NCBI GenBank assembly: GCA_030706385.1
Contig: JAUZOQ010000014.1
Location: forward strand, 1 to 47,960
Length of the DNA: 47,960 bases
Direction: 5' to 3'
Source: Bacteroidota bacterium
GTDB lineage: Bacteria; Bacteroidota; Ignavibacteria; Palsa-1295
Position 1 is the stretch's first letter. The number at the start of each line of letters is the position of its first letter. Shown here in pieces: positions 1 to 10,260 of the stretch. Under the pieces are notes generated by a model. It was given only the letters and a program-made list of their open reading frames with translations, made no database searches and was not told where the DNA came from. Position numbers and translations under genes: made by a program.

Positions 1-1472
1 AGTGCATTTATATCGATCCGCCATATAATACGGGCAATGAGGGATGGAAGTACAATGATAATGTAAACTCACCTACCCAAAAAGCATGGCTTAATAAAGT
101 TGTTGATAAAGATTGTCAGGATAAGCATGATAGATGGTTATCTATGATGACGCCGCGCCTAAAACTCCTGAAAGAACTACTTCGCGACGATGGGGCTATT
201 TTCATTTCCATTGATGATAATGAAGTTGCCCATTTACGGATGCTGATGAATGAAATTTTCGGTGAGGATAATTTTGTAGCCCAGTTTATTTGGCAAAAAA
301 GAGTCACTCGTGAAAATAGAACAGATGTTTCTGTTACTCATGAGTATGTCTTGTTGTATTCAAAAAAACATGATTTCAGTTCTGATTCGGTAGTTACTTT
401 GATGCCAATGGATGAAGCCGCAATTAGTAGATACAAAAATCCCGATAATGATCCTCGCGGACCTTGGACGTCGGTACCCGTAATAGCTCAAGCAGGGCAT
501 GGGACTAAAAGCCAATTCTATACGCTTTTAACTCCAAAAGGAAGGAAAATTGATCCACCCTCCGGTAGTTGCTGGCGGTACACTAAAGAAAAAATGGATA
601 TTGAGATCAAGAAAAATAATATCTGGTTTGGTTCGGATGGGAATGGGGTACCAAGAATAAAAAAATTTCTTAATCAGGGAAGACAGGGTCTTACACCACT
701 TACAATTTTGGAGGCAAAGTTAATCGGGTCAACGGATCAAGCAAAAAGAGAAATTGTAGAATTATTTGAAGGTGAATCTATTTTTGAGACCCCTAAACCT
801 GTTGGTTTGATTCGACATTTATTACAAATAACTACATCTGAGGACGACATCATCCTTGATTCTTTCGCTGGTTCGGGAACGACTGCACATGCTGTACTCT
901 TGCTCAATAAAGAGGATGAGGGTAATCGAAAATTCATACTCATACAATGTGACGAAACGGATACAAAAACGGGAAAGGATAGGGATATCTCCGATAAGAT
1001 TACAGCGGAGCGTGTACGCCGTGTTATTACTGGTGTGAAAACTGCGAAAGACCAAGATTTAAAGAAGGGATTAGGCGGAAGTTTTACGTATTATGAGTTA
1101 GGCGAGTCATTCGACGAGGAGAAATTCTTATCGGGAAAGAATCTGCCGAAATATAATGACATGGCTGGCTTTGTATGGTCAACGCTGACTGGCAATAGTA
1201 TAGATGAGAAAAAGATAAAGGAGAAGAAACAATACATTGGCGAGACGAACAAATTCGAAGTCTATCTGATCTATGAACCCGATAGAGAAAAGCTAAAGAA
1301 AAATGTTGCGCTAACGATGGACTGGCTGAAAAAATTACCGGAATGGGATGGAAAAAAGAAGCGACTAATTTTTGCACCGGTAAAGTGGATGTCGAGTGAC
1401 GTTCTCTATGAATACGGTGTTGAATATGTGCAATTGCCCTATGAAATTTACCGAAGGATAGAAAAAGAATAA
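1..1472 (+). CDS. mod: Type III restriction-modification DNA methyltransferase (Mod), 5' truncated by window edge
   Basis: Adenine-N6 DNA methyltransferase subunit of a type III restriction-modification system; it would methylate one strand of an asymmetric site and give the complex its specificity. The frame is open from base 3, so the start lies outside the window. Visible motifs: the catalytic DPPYNTG at bases 15-35, and the AdoMet-binding DSFAGSGTT at 858-884. The order, catalytic motif before AdoMet motif, is that of beta-class enzymes such as type III Mod proteins. The stop TAA is at 1470-1472, three bases before the GTG of the nuclease gene, so the two are surely co-transcribed. The region between the motifs should hold the target recognition domain, but its site cannot be read from sequence. 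The gene is visibly AT-rich with A-rich codons, unlike the core genes downstream, which suggests acquisition by transfer. Identity is very secure. Confidence 0.95.
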   Translation, partial: CIYIDPPYNTGNEGWKYNDNVNSPTQKAWLNKVVDKDCQDKHDRWLSMMTPRLKLLKELLRDDGAIFISIDDNEVAHLRMLMNEIFGEDNFVAQFIWQKRVTRENRTDVSVTHEYVLLYSKKHDFSSDSVVTLMPMDEAAISRYKNPDNDPRGPWTSVPVIAQAGHGTKSQFYTLLTPKGRKIDPPSGSCWRYTKEKMDIEIKKNNIWFGSDGNGVPRIKKFLNQGRQGLTPLTILEAKLIGSTDQAKREIVELFEGESIFETPKPVGLIRHLLQITTSEDDIILDSFAGSGTTAHAVLLLNKEDEGNRKFILIQCDETDTKTGKDRDISDKITAERVRRVITGVKTAKDQDLKKGLGGSFTYYELGESFDEEKFLSGKNLPKYNDMAGFVWSTLTGNSIDEKKIKEKKQYIGETNKFEVYLIYEPDREKLKKNVALTMDWLKKLPEWDGKKKRLIFAPVKWMSSDVLYEYGVEYVQLPYEIYRRIEKE

Positions 1473-1475
1473 CGA

Positions 1476-3995
1476 GTGAACTTCGAGCCAAAAGAATATC
1501 AAGTCATTACGCTCGATATTGTCGAGAAGTATCTGAGCGCCGTCCGCGAAGTTCGCGATACCATGCCGGACTCGCGGTCAGCAAGCGAAGAGGCATGGAG
1601 AAGAACTGCTCAACGAAAGCATATTTCCTATATTCGTTTTGAAAATGCCCTTCATGAAGACATACCTTTTTTCTGCCTTCGTGTGCCTACGGGTGGCGGA
1701 AAAACCTTTCTTGCCGTAAAGACAATCGATCTTGTTCAAAATATATTGCTGCGCCGCCAGACTGGACTAGTTGTATGGTTTGTTCCCTCCGACCAAATCT
1801 ATACACAAACACTGAAAAATCTTCGAACGAAAGATCATGAATACCGCCTTGCTCTTGAGCGTGCAAGCGGTAAGCGAACTCTCATTGTAGAAAAAGATGA
1901 TCCTATTTCACGCTCCGATATTGCCGGCAATCTTGTCGTACTTGTATTGAAAGTTCAGGCGGTTGCGAGAAAAACAGAATCCGAATTGCGCATCCATAGA
2001 ACGGGAAGCTTCGCAGAATTCCTTCCTGCCGAAGATGATTATCCGGCGCACGAAAGATTACTGAGCGAATTCCCCAATCTAGAAACACAATCGGGCATGT
2101 GGGGAAATCTTATTGTCCCGTCTCTTGCAAATGTTATTCGTCTCTGTAAACCACCGATAGTTTTTGATGAAAGTCATCGCGCCAGAAGCGGATTACGGCG
2201 CGAAATGCTAGAGGGACTGAATCCATCCTGCATGATCGAATTATCGGCGACGCCGGAAAAATCCAGTAACTGCCTTGTCACAATAGGTGGACTTGATTTA
2301 AAGAAGGCGCACATGATAAAGCTGCCTATCAATATTCGTCAAGTACAAGAAGATGGGCATAGCGATATGTTTGAAGCATTGCGTCTTGGAATGAAGCGTT
2401 TGGCGGAGTTAACCGATGCGGCAAAAGAACATGAAGGTTATACGCGCGAATATATTCGACCCATTTGTCTGATTTCGGTTGAACGATCAGGCGAAAAGAA
2501 AGCCGGGCTTATCCATGCCGATGACGCCAAGTCATGGCTTATGGCAAATGGTGTACTAGAAGAAGAAATAAAAATAAAGACAAGCGCTAACGACGAACTC
2601 AAGGAGGTCGATGAAGTTGGTGGCTTGATGTCAGAGCGTTCACCTGTCCGCTATATCATTACAGTCCGAGCGTTGCAAGAAGGATGGGATTGCTCATTTG
2701 CTTATGTTCTCGTACTATTGAATAATCCAAAAACAGAAACAGGGATTACTCAACTTGTAGGACGCGTTATGCGTCAACCATTTGGCAGACGTTCACCTAT
2801 CGAGGCATTGAATGAGTGTTATGTTATTTCGCGGAAGCGAAATAAGCTGTACGAGCAACTAGTCAAAGAACTTCAGAAAGAAGGACTTGAAGAAATTGTC
2901 GGTGATGTTAAGCAATATGAAGATGGCAAAGTTAATTCACGTCTTCAAAAGTACGGCTGGCAATCAAAGTATAAAGAGGCAGGAAAACACTTATTCCTTC
3001 CTGTATTTGCCGTAAGCAACGGAGATGGTTCATTTAGACGATTGGATTATGAACAAGACCTCGCTTGTCGAATTAATTGGGATGAAGCAAATTTAGAGCT
3101 ATTTTTTGAGACATATCATCCCTCCAACCGTGAGAGCAAGGATACTGAATACTCAATAGATTTGACAGAAGTTGGCACAGAAGTTTACGGAAGGAAGTTT
3201 CTTGAAAACACTGCACATGAACCCGAACCTCTACATGTTGCAAAAGACTTGATGGATCTTATTCCAAATCCTTGGGTAGCGTATGGAATAGCCGAACGAG
3301 TACTCGAGCGCCTAAAAAAACTCTATGGCATGGAAGCGATCAAATCCGATTTGTATGCTTGGTCATCACTTCTACGTACGTCACTCACGCTTGAGAAGGA
3401 TTCGCTTGCAAAAAGCGTTTTCCACTCAATGATTCAATCCGGTGAATTAAAGTTCGTCGTCATAACTGACGAATGGGGTGAACGTAGCGAATGGAAGCCG
3501 GCAGAAATAAAACAAGTGCCGAGCGAGATGGCAATTCTTAAAGGGGACGATGGGCAACTTTTAGAATTAACTCTCTTCGATCCGCTGGCCGAAGACGCCG
3601 CGGGATACAACGGCTCGGAAAAAGAATTCGCGCGTGTCGTTGATGATCACAAAAAGATATTTATGTGGTATAGGAATATCGAGCGCGAACGAGATTCATA
3701 TTCTATTCAAGGATGGGCAAAACATAAAGTCTATCCAGATTTCATTCTCGCTTCGAAACATCCTGAGAATCCCGAATCATTTCAACGAGTATATGTGATT
3801 GAAACAAAAGGTGGACAACTTGCAGGGAATCCTCGTTCCACCTATGTTCAAGCGGTCCTCAGCCTTTGTAATACGAAATCCCGCGAGATGTCTTGGGAAG
3901 AATTAAATCTTGCGTTCGAACAGCGTCACGTAAAGTACGAATTTATGCCATTCGACAAATGGGAAAATAGTCTTGCGGCATTACTCAGCGAGTAA
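1476..3995 (+). CDS. res: Type III restriction enzyme Res subunit (SF2 helicase-nuclease)
   Basis: ATP-dependent translocase/endonuclease that cleaves unmodified DNA together with Mod. The start is GTG, three bases after the mod stop. The 839 residues show the SF2 helicase motifs in order: Walker A PTGGGKT near residues 71-77, a DEAH-box variant DESH at 231-234, SATP at 257-260, and motif VI QLVGRVMRQP at about 426-435. A PD-(D/E)xK nuclease site lies near the C-terminus, with Asp near 755 (YPDF) and E-T-K near 776-778, which is the usual domain order of Res proteins. Motifs are intact and there is no internal stop, so the enzyme looks functional. Base composition resembles mod and is more AT-rich than the genes after 10 kb, consistent with a mobile defence module. 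Identity is secure; recognition site unknown. Confidence 0.95.
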   Translation: MNFEPKEYQVITLDIVEKYLSAVREVRDTMPDSRSASEEAWRRTAQRKHISYIRFENALHEDIPFFCLRVPTGGGKTFLAVKTIDLVQNILLRRQTGLVVWFVPSDQIYTQTLKNLRTKDHEYRLALERASGKRTLIVEKDDPISRSDIAGNLVVLVLKVQAVARKTESELRIHRTGSFAEFLPAEDDYPAHERLLSEFPNLETQSGMWGNLIVPSLANVIRLCKPPIVFDESHRARSGLRREMLEGLNPSCMIELSATPEKSSNCLVTIGGLDLKKAHMIKLPINIRQVQEDGHSDMFEALRLGMKRLAELTDAAKEHEGYTREYIRPICLISVERSGEKKAGLIHADDAKSWLMANGVLEEEIKIKTSANDELKEVDEVGGLMSERSPVRYIITVRALQEGWDCSFAYVLVLLNNPKTETGITQLVGRVMRQPFGRRSPIEALNECYVISRKRNKLYEQLVKELQKEGLEEIVGDVKQYEDGKVNSRLQKYGWQSKYKEAGKHLFLPVFAVSNGDGSFRRLDYEQDLACRINWDEANLELFFETYHPSNRESKDTEYSIDLTEVGTEVYGRKFLENTAHEPEPLHVAKDLMDLIPNPWVAYGIAERVLERLKKLYGMEAIKSDLYAWSSLLRTSLTLEKDSLAKSVFHSMIQSGELKFVVITDEWGERSEWKPAEIKQVPSEMAILKGDDGQLLELTLFDPLAEDAAGYNGSEKEFARVVDDHKKIFMWYRNIERERDSYSIQGWAKHKVYPDFILASKHPENPESFQRVYVIETKGGQLAGNPRSTYVQAVLSLCNTKSREMSWEELNLAFEQRHVKYEFMPFDKWENSLAALLSE

Positions 3996-4099: not shown

Positions 4100-4522
4100 A
4101 TGGCAAACACTTTCTCATTATTTATTATTATGCAGATAGCCACAACAATTAGCTTTATAGGACTTGCCATAAGTTCTATTGCATTTTACTTTAGCATTAA
4201 GAGCCATCGAGAGACTACGGGTGTTACCCTATTCCTCGCATTTACTGATCGCTATGAAAAACTCCTTTCAGAACTTAGGCCGATCCTAGAGAAGGACAAT
4301 CCTATATTGAGTGAACCGGATAGCCTAATATTGATACAGTATTTGAATTTATGTTCCGTTGAGTATTTTTCAAGGAAGAAACTTCCAAAGGGCGTCTGGG
4401 AAATTTGGGAGGAGGAAATATGCGAAAATTTACAAAAACCGATTTTTAGGCATTACAAACTGTCTGACTCACAGAAACACTACAACGAGTTCTTTGCATG
4501 GGTGAATGAGAAATTGAAGTAA
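4100..4522 (+). CDS. Small membrane-anchored protein of unknown function in defence island
   Basis: I do not recognise the family. The 140 residues begin with a hydrophobic segment (about residues 8-32), likely one membrane span, followed by a soluble alpha-helical part containing FLAFTDRYEKLLSELR and several aromatic residues near the C-terminus. The layout, a short N-terminal anchor plus a helical cytoplasmic tail, recurs in small hypothetical proteins near restriction genes, but no catalytic motif is visible. An internal ATG at 4130 would also keep most of the membrane segment. There is no convincing Shine-Dalgarno at either start, which is common in Bacteroidota. It lies 104 bases after res and 17 bases before the GIY-YIG gene, in the same direction, so it may be in the same transcript. 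A role in defence is only suggested by position. Confidence 0.6.
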   Translation: MANTFSLFIIMQIATTISFIGLAISSIAFYFSIKSHRETTGVTLFLAFTDRYEKLLSELRPILEKDNPILSEPDSLILIQYLNLCSVEYFSRKKLPKGVWEIWEEEICENLQKPIFRHYKLSDSQKHYNEFFAWVNEKLK

Positions 4523-4539: not shown

Positions 4540-5238
4540 ATGGTAAAAAAAGGACAACTTGTATCTCAATATCTTGAGCGAATATCTGCCGATGTTTTCG
4601 ATGATTTTATCGCAGTCATAAAAGGTTACGTAGGAAGAAGACCAGGAGTCTATGCTCTGTATAAAGGGAATAAGCTGTACTACGTGGGCCTGGCATCGAA
4701 TATGAGTGCGCGCTTAAAGCAACATCTGCGGGATAAACATGAGGGTAAATGGAATAGGTTTAGTGTCTATCTGACAATCGGAGATGCGCACCTGAAGGAA
4801 ATTGAGTCACTCGTCCTTCGAGTAATTCAACCGTCTGGCAATTCCGTGAAAGGTAAGTTTGGTTATGCGCAAAATTTGCATCGTAGGTTGAAGCGAGATG
4901 TCGATTCTCATATGAAGGCGAAAAGAGACAAGCTCTTAGGAATTGAAAGTCGACTTGAGGTCAAAGCGGAAAGTTATGATAAGGATGGACGCTTGCCCGT
5001 GTTATTTCCCTATCGGGGGAGAGTCACGGTTTTGCGAGGGTCATATAAAGGCAAGATAATCAAAGCTAGAGTCCTTCGAGACGGTAGAATCCGATTTAAG
5101 AAGCAAATATTCACTTCCCCATCACTTGCCGCCGCGCGCGCATGCGAGAGCTCCTCTCCAAACCGAAATGGCTGGACTTTCTGGAAGTACGAACGAGCTC
5201 CTGGAGACTGGGTGCCTTTGAATAAGTTAAAGAAGTGA
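4540..5238 (+). CDS. GIY-YIG nuclease fused to a RAMA-like modified-DNA-recognition domain
   Basis: 232 residues with two recognisable parts. Residues about 34-101 form a GIY-YIG nuclease domain: GVY at 36-38, YVG at 48-50, the basic SARLKQH with Arg58, a glutamate at 89 (KEIES) and Asn101, matching the order of catalytic residues in this superfamily. Residues about 155-219 resemble a RAMA (restriction system adenine methylation associated) domain: a basic strand-rich stretch, then DGRIRF, FTSPSLAAA and NGWTFWK, a typical ending of that family. RAMA domains are predicted to read modified bases, so the protein may cut methylated or otherwise modified DNA, or be steered by the Mod methylation next door. 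A GGAG lies 10-15 bases upstream of the ATG. The two-domain reading comes from motif recognition by eye; the nuclease part is the surer of the two. Activity and target are unknown. Confidence 0.78.
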   Translation: MVKKGQLVSQYLERISADVFDDFIAVIKGYVGRRPGVYALYKGNKLYYVGLASNMSARLKQHLRDKHEGKWNRFSVYLTIGDAHLKEIESLVLRVIQPSGNSVKGKFGYAQNLHRRLKRDVDSHMKAKRDKLLGIESRLEVKAESYDKDGRLPVLFPYRGRVTVLRGSYKGKIIKARVLRDGRIRFKKQIFTSPSLAAARACESSSPNRNGWTFWKYERAPGDWVPLNKLKK

Positions 5239-5369: not shown

Positions 5370-6086
5370 ATGGAAAATAAGAACGACTCTGAGCATACCC
5401 GAAGCAGAACTGCCAGCGATACAACTCACACTAAGAATAGCGACGACAGGGCTAAACCCAAAAGGAAATGGAAAACATCCGATACTTTTGGACTCATTGG
5501 GATTCTGATTGCTGCGGGCTCGCTCCTTGTAAGTTACCGGGCAAATCTCACAGCAAATTCAGCAAAGGCACTGATGGGTCAGGAATATACCTTCTTTGGT
5601 GAAAACCCCGAGAAGTGGACATTTTATGAGGATAAGACCATCGATATGATCGGAGTCGAAAGAATAATTAGATTTCAAAAACCATTCAAACAAAAACCAC
5701 GCGTTTCGATCGGTATCACAAATGCAGGTTTTCGTCCTGTTGAGCTTGTCATGAAAGATCTCCATATACCGCTGACCTATGATGATTCTGTTGCTAGAAA
5801 ATACGCATTCCCTTCGGTTGCTGTTTACCAGGACGATCCGCAAGTCGACCATTACACACTAAGCGTGGGGATGCAGATCCCTCACTATGCAATTAAGGCT
5901 TTCATTGATTCAATGCGAACACGACCTCTTGACGAGAGAGTTGTTGAGAGTCTGGTCAATAGTAAGAACTTACGAAGGCTGAACCCCGGAGAAAAGTATA
6001 ACCCTGATGAAATCTGGACGACAAATTGGCATACACTCGTTGGGACCGTTGATGTAAATTGGACAGCTGAAATAACTGATAATTAG
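5370..6086 (+). CDS. Single-span membrane protein, possible H-type-lectin-like C-terminal domain
   Basis: 238 residues. The N-terminal 38 or so are hydrophilic, rich in Ser, Thr, Asp and Lys. Then comes one likely transmembrane helix (FGLIGILIAAGSLLVSY, about residues 45-61) and a soluble domain. That domain has a pattern reminiscent of H-type lectins (IRFQKPFKQKPRVSIG and a C-terminal WHTLVGTVDVNWTAE), in which a strand-rich fold carries a KPF..xPxV signature and a late conserved Trp. I rate the lectin reading as tentative. It is the last gene before the long repeat region, in the direction of the R-M genes but 131 bases from the GIY-YIG gene, and is AT-rich like them. Which side of the membrane the domain faces is not clear; a positive N-terminal flank (KPKRKWK) suggests the N-terminus is inside and the domain outside the cytoplasm. 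Confidence 0.55.
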   Translation: MENKNDSEHTRSRTASDTTHTKNSDDRAKPKRKWKTSDTFGLIGILIAAGSLLVSYRANLTANSAKALMGQEYTFFGENPEKWTFYEDKTIDMIGVERIIRFQKPFKQKPRVSIGITNAGFRPVELVMKDLHIPLTYDDSVARKYAFPSVAVYQDDPQVDHYTLSVGMQIPHYAIKAFIDSMRTRPLDERVVESLVNSKNLRRLNPGEKYNPDEIWTTNWHTLVGTVDVNWTAEITDN

Positions 6087-6900: not shown

Positions 6901-6961
6901 CGGGCTCAATCCCTCACCCCGACTCTCTCCCAATACTAATATTTATGGATGGGAGAGGGGG
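6901..6961. repeat. G-rich/C-rich hairpin repeat, copy 2, providing a gene 3' end
   Basis: Second copy of the 6088-6149 unit, with the same CGGGCTC and CCCTCACCCC start and GGGAGAGGGG end. The minus-strand gene at 6943-8013 reads into it, and its last residues NPLSHP and stop codon come from this repeat. A heptamer stretch (AAGTCTG, ATGTCCG, AAGTCGG) directly precedes it at about 6870-6899. Confidence 0.75.
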
Positions 6962-8013
6962 TTGCGTGCTTCCTGCTTTCCCTCTGTCTTTGCGAAGAGG
7001 GCACGGCTGATCATTTGCGTTACTGCTTCGTTGGCGTTGAAATACCAGAGATGAATATCCGGATGCTCGTTCTGAAAAACTCTGAAGATCTGATCGGCAA
7101 AGGATTGTCCGATCACTGCCACACCTTCGAAATCGAAGGCCACTTCCTTGAACCTATCGAGCCGTGCCAGCAGTCTCTTTGCCTGCGAACGCGACAGGAG
7201 ATTTTCTTCTCCGATCTGCGCTAATCTCACCGGTATGTGCGTCACCGCAAAGCCATAATCGCTATCGCCGGATGCATATTTATCGAAGACTTCTTTTGTT
7301 GTCCGATCGGAGGAACGTAAAAACTTTGCGGAGACGAGCGTACCGTCAAGTTTATCGTCTTTCAATTCGATCTGCACATCTTCGCTTCCGGCACTGAGGA
7401 AGGTCAATTGATGCGAGAGGATCACGAACCGATCGCTGATACGCGACGAGAAGAAAATGCCTTCACCCGTATGTTTTGCGGGATCGGTCGTTAACTTTCC
7501 CTTCGATAGTTCAAGAATAGCAGCTCGTTCATCCTCAAGCTCAAAGCGCTTCATGATCTTCCGGAATATTCCGACTCCGTTATCCTTGATTGCAATTGTA
7601 ATATAACGCTCGTCGTAGGTTACGGATATAGAAATAACCGAGCCTTCACTATGATCGATAGCATTATTAAAAATTTCGGTGAAAAAATACGCACATCGCT
7701 GCTCAAGATTTTTCGCCACTCCGATCTCTTTGAGTTTCGGCAGCACATCGACTGCATACACCCTATCTTCGGATAGATCGGGACTATTAGCGTAGTCCTT
7801 CGTTTCAAGAATATGTTGAAAGAGTTTGTAGATCTTCGCTCGGGTACTGCCCTCCTCGCTCAAGATCTTTTCTTCGACGAGCTTCCGGATTTGCTTGTTG
7901 ATTGCTTGCCGCGTAAGGTGAAATTTATCGGCCGCCACCGAAGCAATATTGCGCCGATGAGCTTCGACGTTTTCGATGATGAACTGCCTGATTTCCTCAG
8001 ATTTCTTATACAC
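6943..8013 (-). CDS. HTH-HATPase-STAS-like (DUF4325) regulatory protein
   Basis: 356 residues, start GTG at 8013. Residues 1-60 look like a winged helix-turn-helix (VAADKFHLTRQAINKQIRKLVEE). Residues about 95-210 form a GHKL-type ATPase: N-box EIFNNAIDH at 113-121, G1 DNGVGIF at 144-150 and G2 GEGIF at 183-187, as in anti-sigma factor kinases. Residues about 250-340 fit the STAS-like DUF4325 domain (VAFDFEGVAVIGQSFADQIFRVF). Such fusions are known and combine DNA binding with a switch module like the SpoIIAB/SpoIIAA pair in one chain. The ATPase should bind ATP; kinase activity on the STAS domain would need checking. The last six residues derive from a repeat unit, so the natural end may have been replaced. 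No partner gene is adjacent. Three TTGTCAAC-type boxes just upstream suggest autoregulation. Confidence 0.82.
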   Translation of the reverse strand: MYKKSEEIRQFIIENVEAHRRNIASVAADKFHLTRQAINKQIRKLVEEKILSEEGSTRAKIYKLFQHILETKDYANSPDLSEDRVYAVDVLPKLKEIGVAKNLEQRCAYFFTEIFNNAIDHSEGSVISISVTYDERYITIAIKDNGVGIFRKIMKRFELEDERAAILELSKGKLTTDPAKHTGEGIFFSSRISDRFVILSHQLTFLSAGSEDVQIELKDDKLDGTLVSAKFLRSSDRTTKEVFDKYASGDSDYGFAVTHIPVRLAQIGEENLLSRSQAKRLLARLDRFKEVAFDFEGVAVIGQSFADQIFRVFQNEHPDIHLWYFNANEAVTQMISRALFAKTEGKQEARNPLSHP

Positions 8014-9150: not shown

Positions 9151-9336
9151 GGGAAGTCCGGAGTCTGATGTCCGGAGTCCGAAGTCGGGAACGGGGAAGG
9201 GACTGCATTCAGTGGAACGGACTCTTAGTCCGTTATACGGAGTCGACTTCGTCGGACGGACTGAGAGTCCGTCCCACTGGAGAAAGTCCTCGCGCCACCC
9301 TGTTCCCCTCTGCTAACGACTAAAGACTAATGACTA
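9151..9336. repeat. 186-bp direct repeat, left copy
   Basis: Composite unit containing GTC-type heptamers (AAGTCCG, GAGTCTG, ATGTCCG, GAGTCCG, AAGTCGG in register at 9154-9188), the palindromic element CAGTGGAACGGACT to GTCCCACTGG at 9210-9280, and an AACGACT heptamer array at the end. It matches 10265-10450 nearly base for base in the same orientation, so the pair flanks the lipoprotein gene at 9727. Confidence 0.85.
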
Positions 9337-9339
9337 CCC

Positions 9340-9511
9340 TGTCATTTCGACCGGAGCCTGACGCGATAGCGGCAGGCGTAGGGAGAAATCTGGCAATAAA
9401 GATAAATCCTTACTTTTCGCGTTTGAAGAACAAAGGACTTATTTTTATTTATAGATTTCTCTCTCCGTTTCGTTCTCCCTGCGGTCGAACGAAACTCCGA
9501 TCGAAATGACA
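9340..9511. repeat. Fold-back element copy 2 (172 bp)
   Basis: The first 100 or so bases match copy 1 at 8290 almost exactly, including TGTCATTTCGACCGGAGCCT, GGAGAAATCTGGCAATAAAG and GTTTGAAGAACAAAGGACTT. The right arm is longer (AGATTTCTCTCTCCG, then CGGTCGAACGAAACTCC) and ends CGAAATGACA. No coding content. Confidence 0.8.
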
Positions 9512-9526
9512 ACCCTGATTCTGCTA

Positions 9527-9582
9527 ACTGCTTACTGCATACTGCATACTGCATACTGTCAACTGCCCACTGCCCACTGCTT
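9527..9582. repeat. Perfectly phased heptamer array (ACTGCAT type), eight units
   Basis: Units in register: ACTGCTT, then ACTGCAT three times, ACTGTCA, ACTGCCC twice, ACTGCTT. The first four bases ACTG are constant in all eight and the last three vary. From 9583 to 9726 I see no further repeat; this AT-richer stretch presumably holds the promoter of the following gene. Confidence 0.85.
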
Positions 9583-9726
9583 CCTGTAAAATACTCTTAT
9601 ACAGTAAAGATATTTTCTCTATTTCATATCTGCATTCCGATATTCTGCTTGTTTCTCCGGTAATCCGCTACTGGCATGACTCTTGCACTTTGGGAGCGTG
9701 GTTAACTATCTTGATTTGAATATATT

Positions 9727-10260
9727 ATGAACACGAATAGTAATGCAAGACTTTATATGTATGCTCTATTTTTCTGCATACTTGTTGCAACTCAGCCTGC
9801 TTGCAAAACCGGTACGGAGCCTTCGAATAAAGATTGCAAGCAGGATCTTAATGTCGGAAAACTACAGGTGCTTCATGCTAACGATACGGGAAGCGCCAGA
9901 TACTTTTATTTAGAAACAACTCCTGCCAAGAGTACCTGCGAAGCAGATTATTCGTTTAGTTTTTGGTGGGCGAATCCCGATAGTATGAATTCTACGGTAA
10001 GGCCTCCGCTCGCCGATCTCAGCCATGCCTTCGCTCCCGGCGGCTTGGAGGGGCTTCTGTTCTATTTCCCTCATCCTGTTGAGCAGTATAACAGTAGTCC
10101 TTACATCAAACGATGGGAAATTATTTTTTCTATCGGCAACAAGAATTCAAGTTCGGATACAACAATCTATACGATCTTTACGAACTTAATAGAAGGAACA
10201 CCGCAGAGCGATTCGGTACGCGTCAAAGCTGATATTGTTTTTTCGGGAGTGGGGAAATAG
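9727..10260 (+). CDS. Predicted small lipoprotein/secreted protein of unknown function
   Basis: 177 residues. The N-terminus has a short polar start, a hydrophobic core (YMYALFFCILVAT, about 11-23) and a cysteine at about 27 (TQPAC), which fits a signal peptide with a poor lipobox, so lipid attachment is uncertain. The mature part contains four further Cys/Trp-rich landmarks, SFSFWWANPD and a C-terminal strand-like half ending in VRVKADIVFSGVG, suggesting a beta-rich domain of the outer face. I do not recognise the family. The gene is bracketed by a 186-bp direct repeat (9151-9336 and 10265-10450), so recombination could delete or amplify it. No neighbour shares its strand within reach. Confidence 0.65.
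   Translation: MNTNSNARLYMYALFFCILVATQPACKTGTEPSNKDCKQDLNVGKLQVLHANDTGSARYFYLETTPAKSTCEADYSFSFWWANPDSMNSTVRPPLADLSHAFAPGGLEGLLFYFPHPVEQYNSSPYIKRWEIIFSIGNKNSSSDTTIYTIFTNLIEGTPQSDSVRVKADIVFSGVGK

Follow-up and report, generated by a model that had tools for sequence, protein, structure and literature searches.

Several GIY-YIG nucleases have been described in which the catalytic domain is joined to a small DNA-binding or sensing domain. The enzymes Ahi29725I and Apa233I are GIY-YIG nucleases fused to a winged helix (wH) that reads Gm6ATC; methyltransferases are rarely found near such enzymes and it was argued that modification-specific enzymes should be found alone (PMC11037411). One sentence in the discussion of the same 2024 paper, given with no sequence analysis or assay, mentions fusions of GIY-YIG with a RAMA domain and suggests that they may be used like the wH fusions that read N6-methyladenine (m6A, also written 6mA). 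CMoRE, or PD-T4-3, is encoded by a single gene and consists of an N-terminal GIY-YIG nuclease, a flexible linker and a small C-terminal domain, the latter being the part that senses 5hmC and having a fold with no known homologue (PMC12923530). In addition, PADLOC contains models for PDC-S14, a phage defence candidate derived from guilt by embedding (PMC10855318).

The RAMA domain itself has been studied in two other proteins. The C-terminal domain of the methyltransferase CcrM is a RAMA domain that binds the non-target strand for the enzyme, and it was shown to bind DNA non-specifically through the backbone (PMC6787082). MPND is a eukaryotic MPN-domain protein without a nuclease, the RAMA domain of which contacts the DNA backbone through two serines and one tryptophan (S113, S115 and W135); base contacts were not seen, and binding was neither affected by 6mA nor showed any preference for it (PMC9963953). 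An earlier proposal that RAMA domains are 6mA readers is cited in that paper.

Here, a protein with the same two-domain architecture as the fusions mentioned in PMC11037411 was analyzed in a window of 47,960 nucleotides, the whole stretch of DNA under study. Its open reading frame at 4540-5238 (plus strand) starts with ATG, encodes 232 amino acids and is present in single copy in the genome. The product is a predicted GIY-YIG-RAMA nuclease according to Pfam, an alignment of 37 full-length family members (A2), an AlphaFold2 model and fold matches in the PDB. The nuclease domain spans residues about 30-104 (4627-4851, plus strand), as placed by the alignment and the model, with PF01541 matching residues 36-70 (E 2.6e-5, 24.9 bits for a cut-off of 22.6), and the RAMA domain spans residues about 150-232 (4987-5235, plus strand), with PF18755 matching residues 165-232 (E 9.6e-13, 48.5 bits for a cut-off of 35.2). 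DUF4357 gave a weaker match than RAMA over the same region. Both families were matched by all 37 full homologues, in which G36/Y38, Y48/G50, R58, E89 and N101 are invariant. Since the full GIY-YIG catalytic set is kept throughout, an active nuclease is predicted. In the C-terminal part, S193-P194-S195, G211, W212, W215 and W224 show little or no variation across A2, and position 210 is mostly N or D.

A first model, built on 7 sequences, was mediocre (pLDDT 73.7) and was superseded by the model built on the 37 sequences of A2 (pLDDT 85.7, pTM 0.74). In the latter, the C-terminal part (151-232) matched the DNA-bound MPND RAMA 7ydw (Z 10.0, rmsd 2.5 over 75), its apo form 7ydt (Z 9.6) and the C-terminal domain of CcrM 6pbd (Z 9.3), while the best nuclease match of the N-terminal part (16-103) was the GIY-YIG domain of UvrC (Z about 7). 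A preliminary description had read a GIY-YIG signature and a C-terminal RAMA in one chain and had named the PF18755 profile and an AlphaFold fold as checks of the C-terminus. Both domains pass their Pfam cut-offs, both folds are matched and no other fold was found at the C-terminus, which confirms a real two-part protein that belongs to the GIY-YIG nuclease superfamily and carries a RAMA domain.

CcrM could be aligned by sequence with the RAMA domain of one homologue (E 0.003). In the resulting correspondence, which depends on an 8-residue numbering offset deduced from sequence, S193-P194-S195 and N210-G211-W212 of the window protein face S315-I316-H317 and N330-G331-W332 of CcrM, so that S193, N210 and W212 align with S315, N330 and W332. 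The conserved RAMA residues thus align with DNA-backbone contacts of CcrM and, in view of the MPND contacts as well, fit a backbone clamp. No base-reading pocket was identified in the RAMA domain of the nuclease; its conserved residues reveal no m6A pocket and would be compatible with another reading surface.

The layout of the protein recurs in PDC-S14 and CMoRE. PDC-S14 contains GIY-YIG and RAMA-like parts that are matched in the same order, and all 37 homologues match it. However, the PDC-S14 models are longer (280-320 positions) and the window protein matches them in pieces (residues 172-231 and about 34-96), with significant but partial matches to the GIY-YIG and RAMA parts of different models. 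As for CMoRE, the arrangement of an N-terminal GIY-YIG nuclease and a small C-terminal domain, with a flexible linker and in one gene, is the same, but the C-terminus of the window protein is a RAMA domain and its nuclease motif is GVYAL...YYVG. The GIYxY-YIG motif of CMoRE, which has an additional Tyr two residues after that of GIY, is absent from this segment (G36-V-Y38-A-L40-Y41), the leucine located two residues after Y38 being invariant in 37/37 members. CMoRE structures matched only residues 22-98 of the first, 7-sequence model, and the 5hmC-sensing domain of CMoRE is C-terminal.

The statement in the preliminary description that no characterized protein of this kind was known holds for function, as no characterized GIY-YIG-RAMA member was found, and does not hold for architecture, which had been noted in PMC11037411 and is the layout of PDC-S14. 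A literature search that was light on subscription papers found no paper on a linkage of GIY-YIG-RAMA to restriction-modification (R-M) operons of three types. The fusion itself is therefore not new and the R-M context appears to be. A paper on restriction in Zymomonas (PMC8432527) was discarded as a lead, since GIY-YIG is mentioned only in its methods.

The upstream neighbours of the nuclease gene are the mod and res genes of a type III R-M system, as the preliminary description had indicated for Mod. The gene of the Mod adenine methyltransferase (3-1472, plus strand; PF01555 E 6.5e-30, PADLOC MTase_III E 1.6e-110, DPPY and FAGSG motifs) is truncated at its 5' end, where the contig begins. 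The reading frame stays open as far as base 3, the ATG at 144 is merely the first one after the edge and the DPPYNTG motif is encoded upstream of it. The Res restriction subunit (1476-3995, plus strand; PF04851 E 8e-12, PADLOC REase_III E 3e-126) contains the helicase motifs GGGKT and DESH and a PD-(D/E)XK nuclease motif of its own (PDF...ETKG). Between res and the nuclease gene lies a small open reading frame (4100-4522, plus strand) of 140 amino acids, membrane-like by eye, separated from them by 104 bp and 17 bp, respectively. No terminator-like site was seen on the plus strand between res and the nuclease gene, which makes co-transcription possible. Downstream, another frame (5370-6086, plus strand) encodes 238 amino acids with a hydrophobic segment by eye. 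Neither of the two frames matched a family above cut-off and, in the case of the small one, tblastn gave no match near the nuclease homologues. They were both rejected as partners because nothing similar occurs near relatives of the nuclease. Further away, the gene at 6943-8013 (minus strand) encodes a histidine-kinase-type ATPase with a STAS-like DUF4325 and a weak N-terminal winged-helix match in Pfam, probably a regulator near the R-M locus.

The distribution of the family is wide yet sparse. Relatives were present in 8 of 197 related genomes and in 2 of 395 members of a home-phylum sample. Others came from a pattern scan of GTDB contigs titled Deltaproteobacteria, Ignavibacteriae, Oligoflexia, Elusimicrobia, Fibrobacteres, Planctomycetes, Desantisbacteria and Bacteroidetes, and from additional searches of three phyla. 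The nuclease had no tblastn match in plasmid and phage collections and no relative in viral contigs, hence nothing points to carriage by phages or plasmids. Divergent relatives in genomes from the phylum of G504 (L103-L106) have lost the tryptophan of the RAMA NGW motif. Other GIY-YIG relatives (L109-L111) lack RAMA and have a different N-terminus; these three, none of them near a methyltransferase, are too few to count as a control. At L088, the GIY-YIG-RAMA gene is preceded at a distance of about 1.2 kb by a second and different GIY-YIG-like frame (2490-2924; GVYAVF...YVG), and at L092 the nuclease gene (9317-9999) is interrupted by stops and adjoins two DNA methylase genes. An apparent fusion of 994 amino acids at L082 was rejected as a long upstream open frame on a GC-rich contig, overlapping a long frame on the opposite strand.

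Linkage to R-M genes was examined at 41 loci, one per genome (L012 and L029 come from the same genome), using neighbour-built profiles. Most assignments were confirmed by Pfam, and those of the L015 and L092 methyltransferases come from the neighbour-built profiles alone. An adenine-type methyltransferase was found within 6 kb at 21 of the 41 loci, including the window. The neighbours are of type I (L011, L019, L030, L093, L094, L096, L100), of type II/IIG or other Eco57I or N6 methyltransferases (L009, L012, L015, L016, L022, L024, L025, L083, L085), with a BsuBI/PstI restriction enzyme alongside at L009, and of type III or Mod-like (the window, L026, L087, L092, L098). A conserved linkage to type III as such was rejected, since only 5 of the 21 methyltransferase-linked loci are of this type. 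Two more loci, in addition to the 21, have only a restriction-helicase gene nearby (L018, L020), and no methyltransferase is nearby at 20 of the 41, several of which are at contig ends. Matches to PF02384, PF01555 and PF07669 amount to about 3.5 per Mb in the host genomes, an upper bound because the families overlap, and chance would place a methyltransferase in a span of about 14 kb at no more than about 5% of loci. The binomial probability of 21/41 is then about 5e-17, with the loci treated as independent and the clustering of defence genes uncorrected. This clustering is the main weakness of the statistic, and proximity alone could reflect defence islands.

In ten cases the nuclease gene and an R-M gene directly abut in the same orientation, -4 to 86 bp apart. 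The gap to hsdS is zero at L093 and L094, and the nuclease gene overlaps by 4 bases with hsdS at L019 and with a IIG gene at L083. Short gaps to R-M genes were also seen at L025 (5 bp), L026 (11 bp), L011 (14 bp, hsdR) and L024 (56 bp). Elsewhere the R-M gene is downstream of the nuclease, namely mod at L098 (60 bp) and a methyltransferase at L009 (86 bp). The R-M partners that were examined, Res of the window and those of L016, L024, L025 and L083, have a nuclease motif of their own, which argues that the GIY-YIG-RAMA protein is an added nuclease rather than a replacement. The gene beside the nuclease relative of L018 (9905-12244) joins a ResIII-type helicase to a putative amidoligase domain (PF12224), and a protein of 995 amino acids with weak SMC/AAA similarity is encoded just upstream of the nuclease and type III system of L098 (10823-13807, minus strand).

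When the 18 rows labelled by R-M type were followed on the tree of the 37 members, the type changed at least 9 times. For instance, support of 100/95 joins L011 (type I) to L098 (type III) as sisters, and support of 99/96 joins L024 (type IIG) to L096 (type I). Because close relatives have unlike partners, the nuclease gene appears to move between R-M types. Partners of different types most likely differ in sequence specificity, and as the RAMA contact residues stay constant while the type varies, the domain is unlikely to read the partner's site.

Taken as a whole, these data favour a reading in which GIY-YIG-RAMA proteins are second-layer nucleases of R-M loci, gated by a feature of the DNA that escapes the first R-M system, to which we assign a probability of about 0.42. 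It is favoured by the two-domain fold, by the catalytic set and by the linkage to types I, II/IIG and III with switching among them. According to this scheme, RAMA would grip double-stranded DNA through the backbone and the GIY-YIG domain would cut the DNA so held, cutting being gated by the feature of the invading DNA that lets it escape. Gating is the weakest step, and the likeliest gate would be, as with CMoRE, a modified phage base different from ordinary m6A. CMoRE may serve as an analogy in favour of such a gate, being modification-dependent with the same layout of an N-terminal nuclease and a C-terminal sensor (PMC12923530). By analogy with CcrM and MPND, in which RAMA contacts the backbone only (PMC6787082, PMC9963953), a modification reader would be less expected. 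In a tentative extension, put at somewhat less than even odds, the protein would be a mobile nuclease module able to join R-M operons of types I, II, IIG and III alike, as a second cutting activity not described before, with either the R-M complex itself or a modified phage base as its gate. A type IV enzyme that accompanies another defence system, as BrxU does with BREX, offers a further comparison for gating by a phage modification.

Recruitment by the R-M complex leads to the first rival explanation, in which no modification is read. RAMA would be a non-specific clamp and the accessory nuclease would degrade or nick DNA that the neighbouring R-M enzyme has opened, looped or cut. The zero gaps to, and overlaps with, hsdS and IIG genes within operons point in this direction, and so does the best nuclease match, since UvrC is a GIY-YIG enzyme that depends on other proteins to reach its site. 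The alignment of the family-conserved RAMA residues with the backbone-contact residues of CcrM (PMC6787082) is likewise what a clamp would be expected to give. Yet type IIG and PstI-like partners share the nuclease without having a DNA translocase that could recruit it, and half of the loci have no visible partner. Recruitment is a somewhat less likely reading, the modification gate being put slightly ahead of it on the ground that a nuclease acting alone with a non-specific clamp would be harmless only if gated.

A stand-alone type IV enzyme specific for m6A, as suggested for GIY-YIG-RAMA fusions in PMC11037411, is improbable. The wH-GIY-YIG fusions are indeed m6A-dependent (PMC11037411), and RAMA was once proposed to read 6mA, as cited in PMC9963953. 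Generic m6A reading is, however, not what the R-M context of the family suggests. Enzymes of that kind are expected to stand alone (PMC11037411), which this family does not do, being strongly co-located with adenine-type methyltransferases (21/41), and no 6mA preference was seen for MPND RAMA (PMC9963953). Moreover, several methyltransferases of N6 type and D12 type are encoded in the host genomes. The genome of the window has PF02384 on two contigs, PF01555 on two and PF02086 on one, and 17 of 31 host genomes have a D12 (Dam-like) methyltransferase, a count that covers enzymes of any target site and does not settle a GATC-specific reading. With several adenine methyltransferases in the host and others in the same operon in relatives, a generic m6A trigger would be suicidal, and the evidence speaks against any N6-methyladenine being enough to set off the nuclease. 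The suggestion in the preliminary description that the protein is directed to methylated DNA, if any m6A is meant, is undermined by these host and same-operon methyltransferases, by the lack of 6mA preference of MPND RAMA and by the non-specific binding of CcrM RAMA.

Distinctly improbable is a repair or clean-up nuclease that travels with R-M operons and has no part in defence. Vsr, a nuclease carried beside cytosine methyltransferases, is a precedent and the nuclease domain is UvrC-like, but we know of no m6A-specific lesion that would call for a repair nuclease in types I, II and III alike, and the closest models in PADLOC are classed as candidates for defence. Least probable is an additional restriction enzyme of type II-like character that acts at the sites of its partner and is blocked by the partner's methylation, the second suggestion of the preliminary description (a nuclease held off by self methylation), since tree sisters pair with different R-M types and the site would have to change while the RAMA contact residues are nearly invariant, and since the partners keep their own nuclease motif, even if a methyltransferase is adjacent at half of the loci.

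GIY-YIG-RAMA recurs in many bacterial groups beside type I, II and III R-M systems, which suggests a nuclease added to these defences and not one that simply reads adenine methylation. If true, this would challenge the 2024 suggestion that such fusions are m6A-dependent type IV enzymes and would bear on the question of whether any RAMA domain is a reader of N6-methyladenine. The nuclease is small and encoded by a single gene, which makes a direct test easy. If the nuclease does belong to R-M operons, a defence that is among the most common in bacteria would have an undescribed extra effector, shared by systems whose enzymes are quite different.
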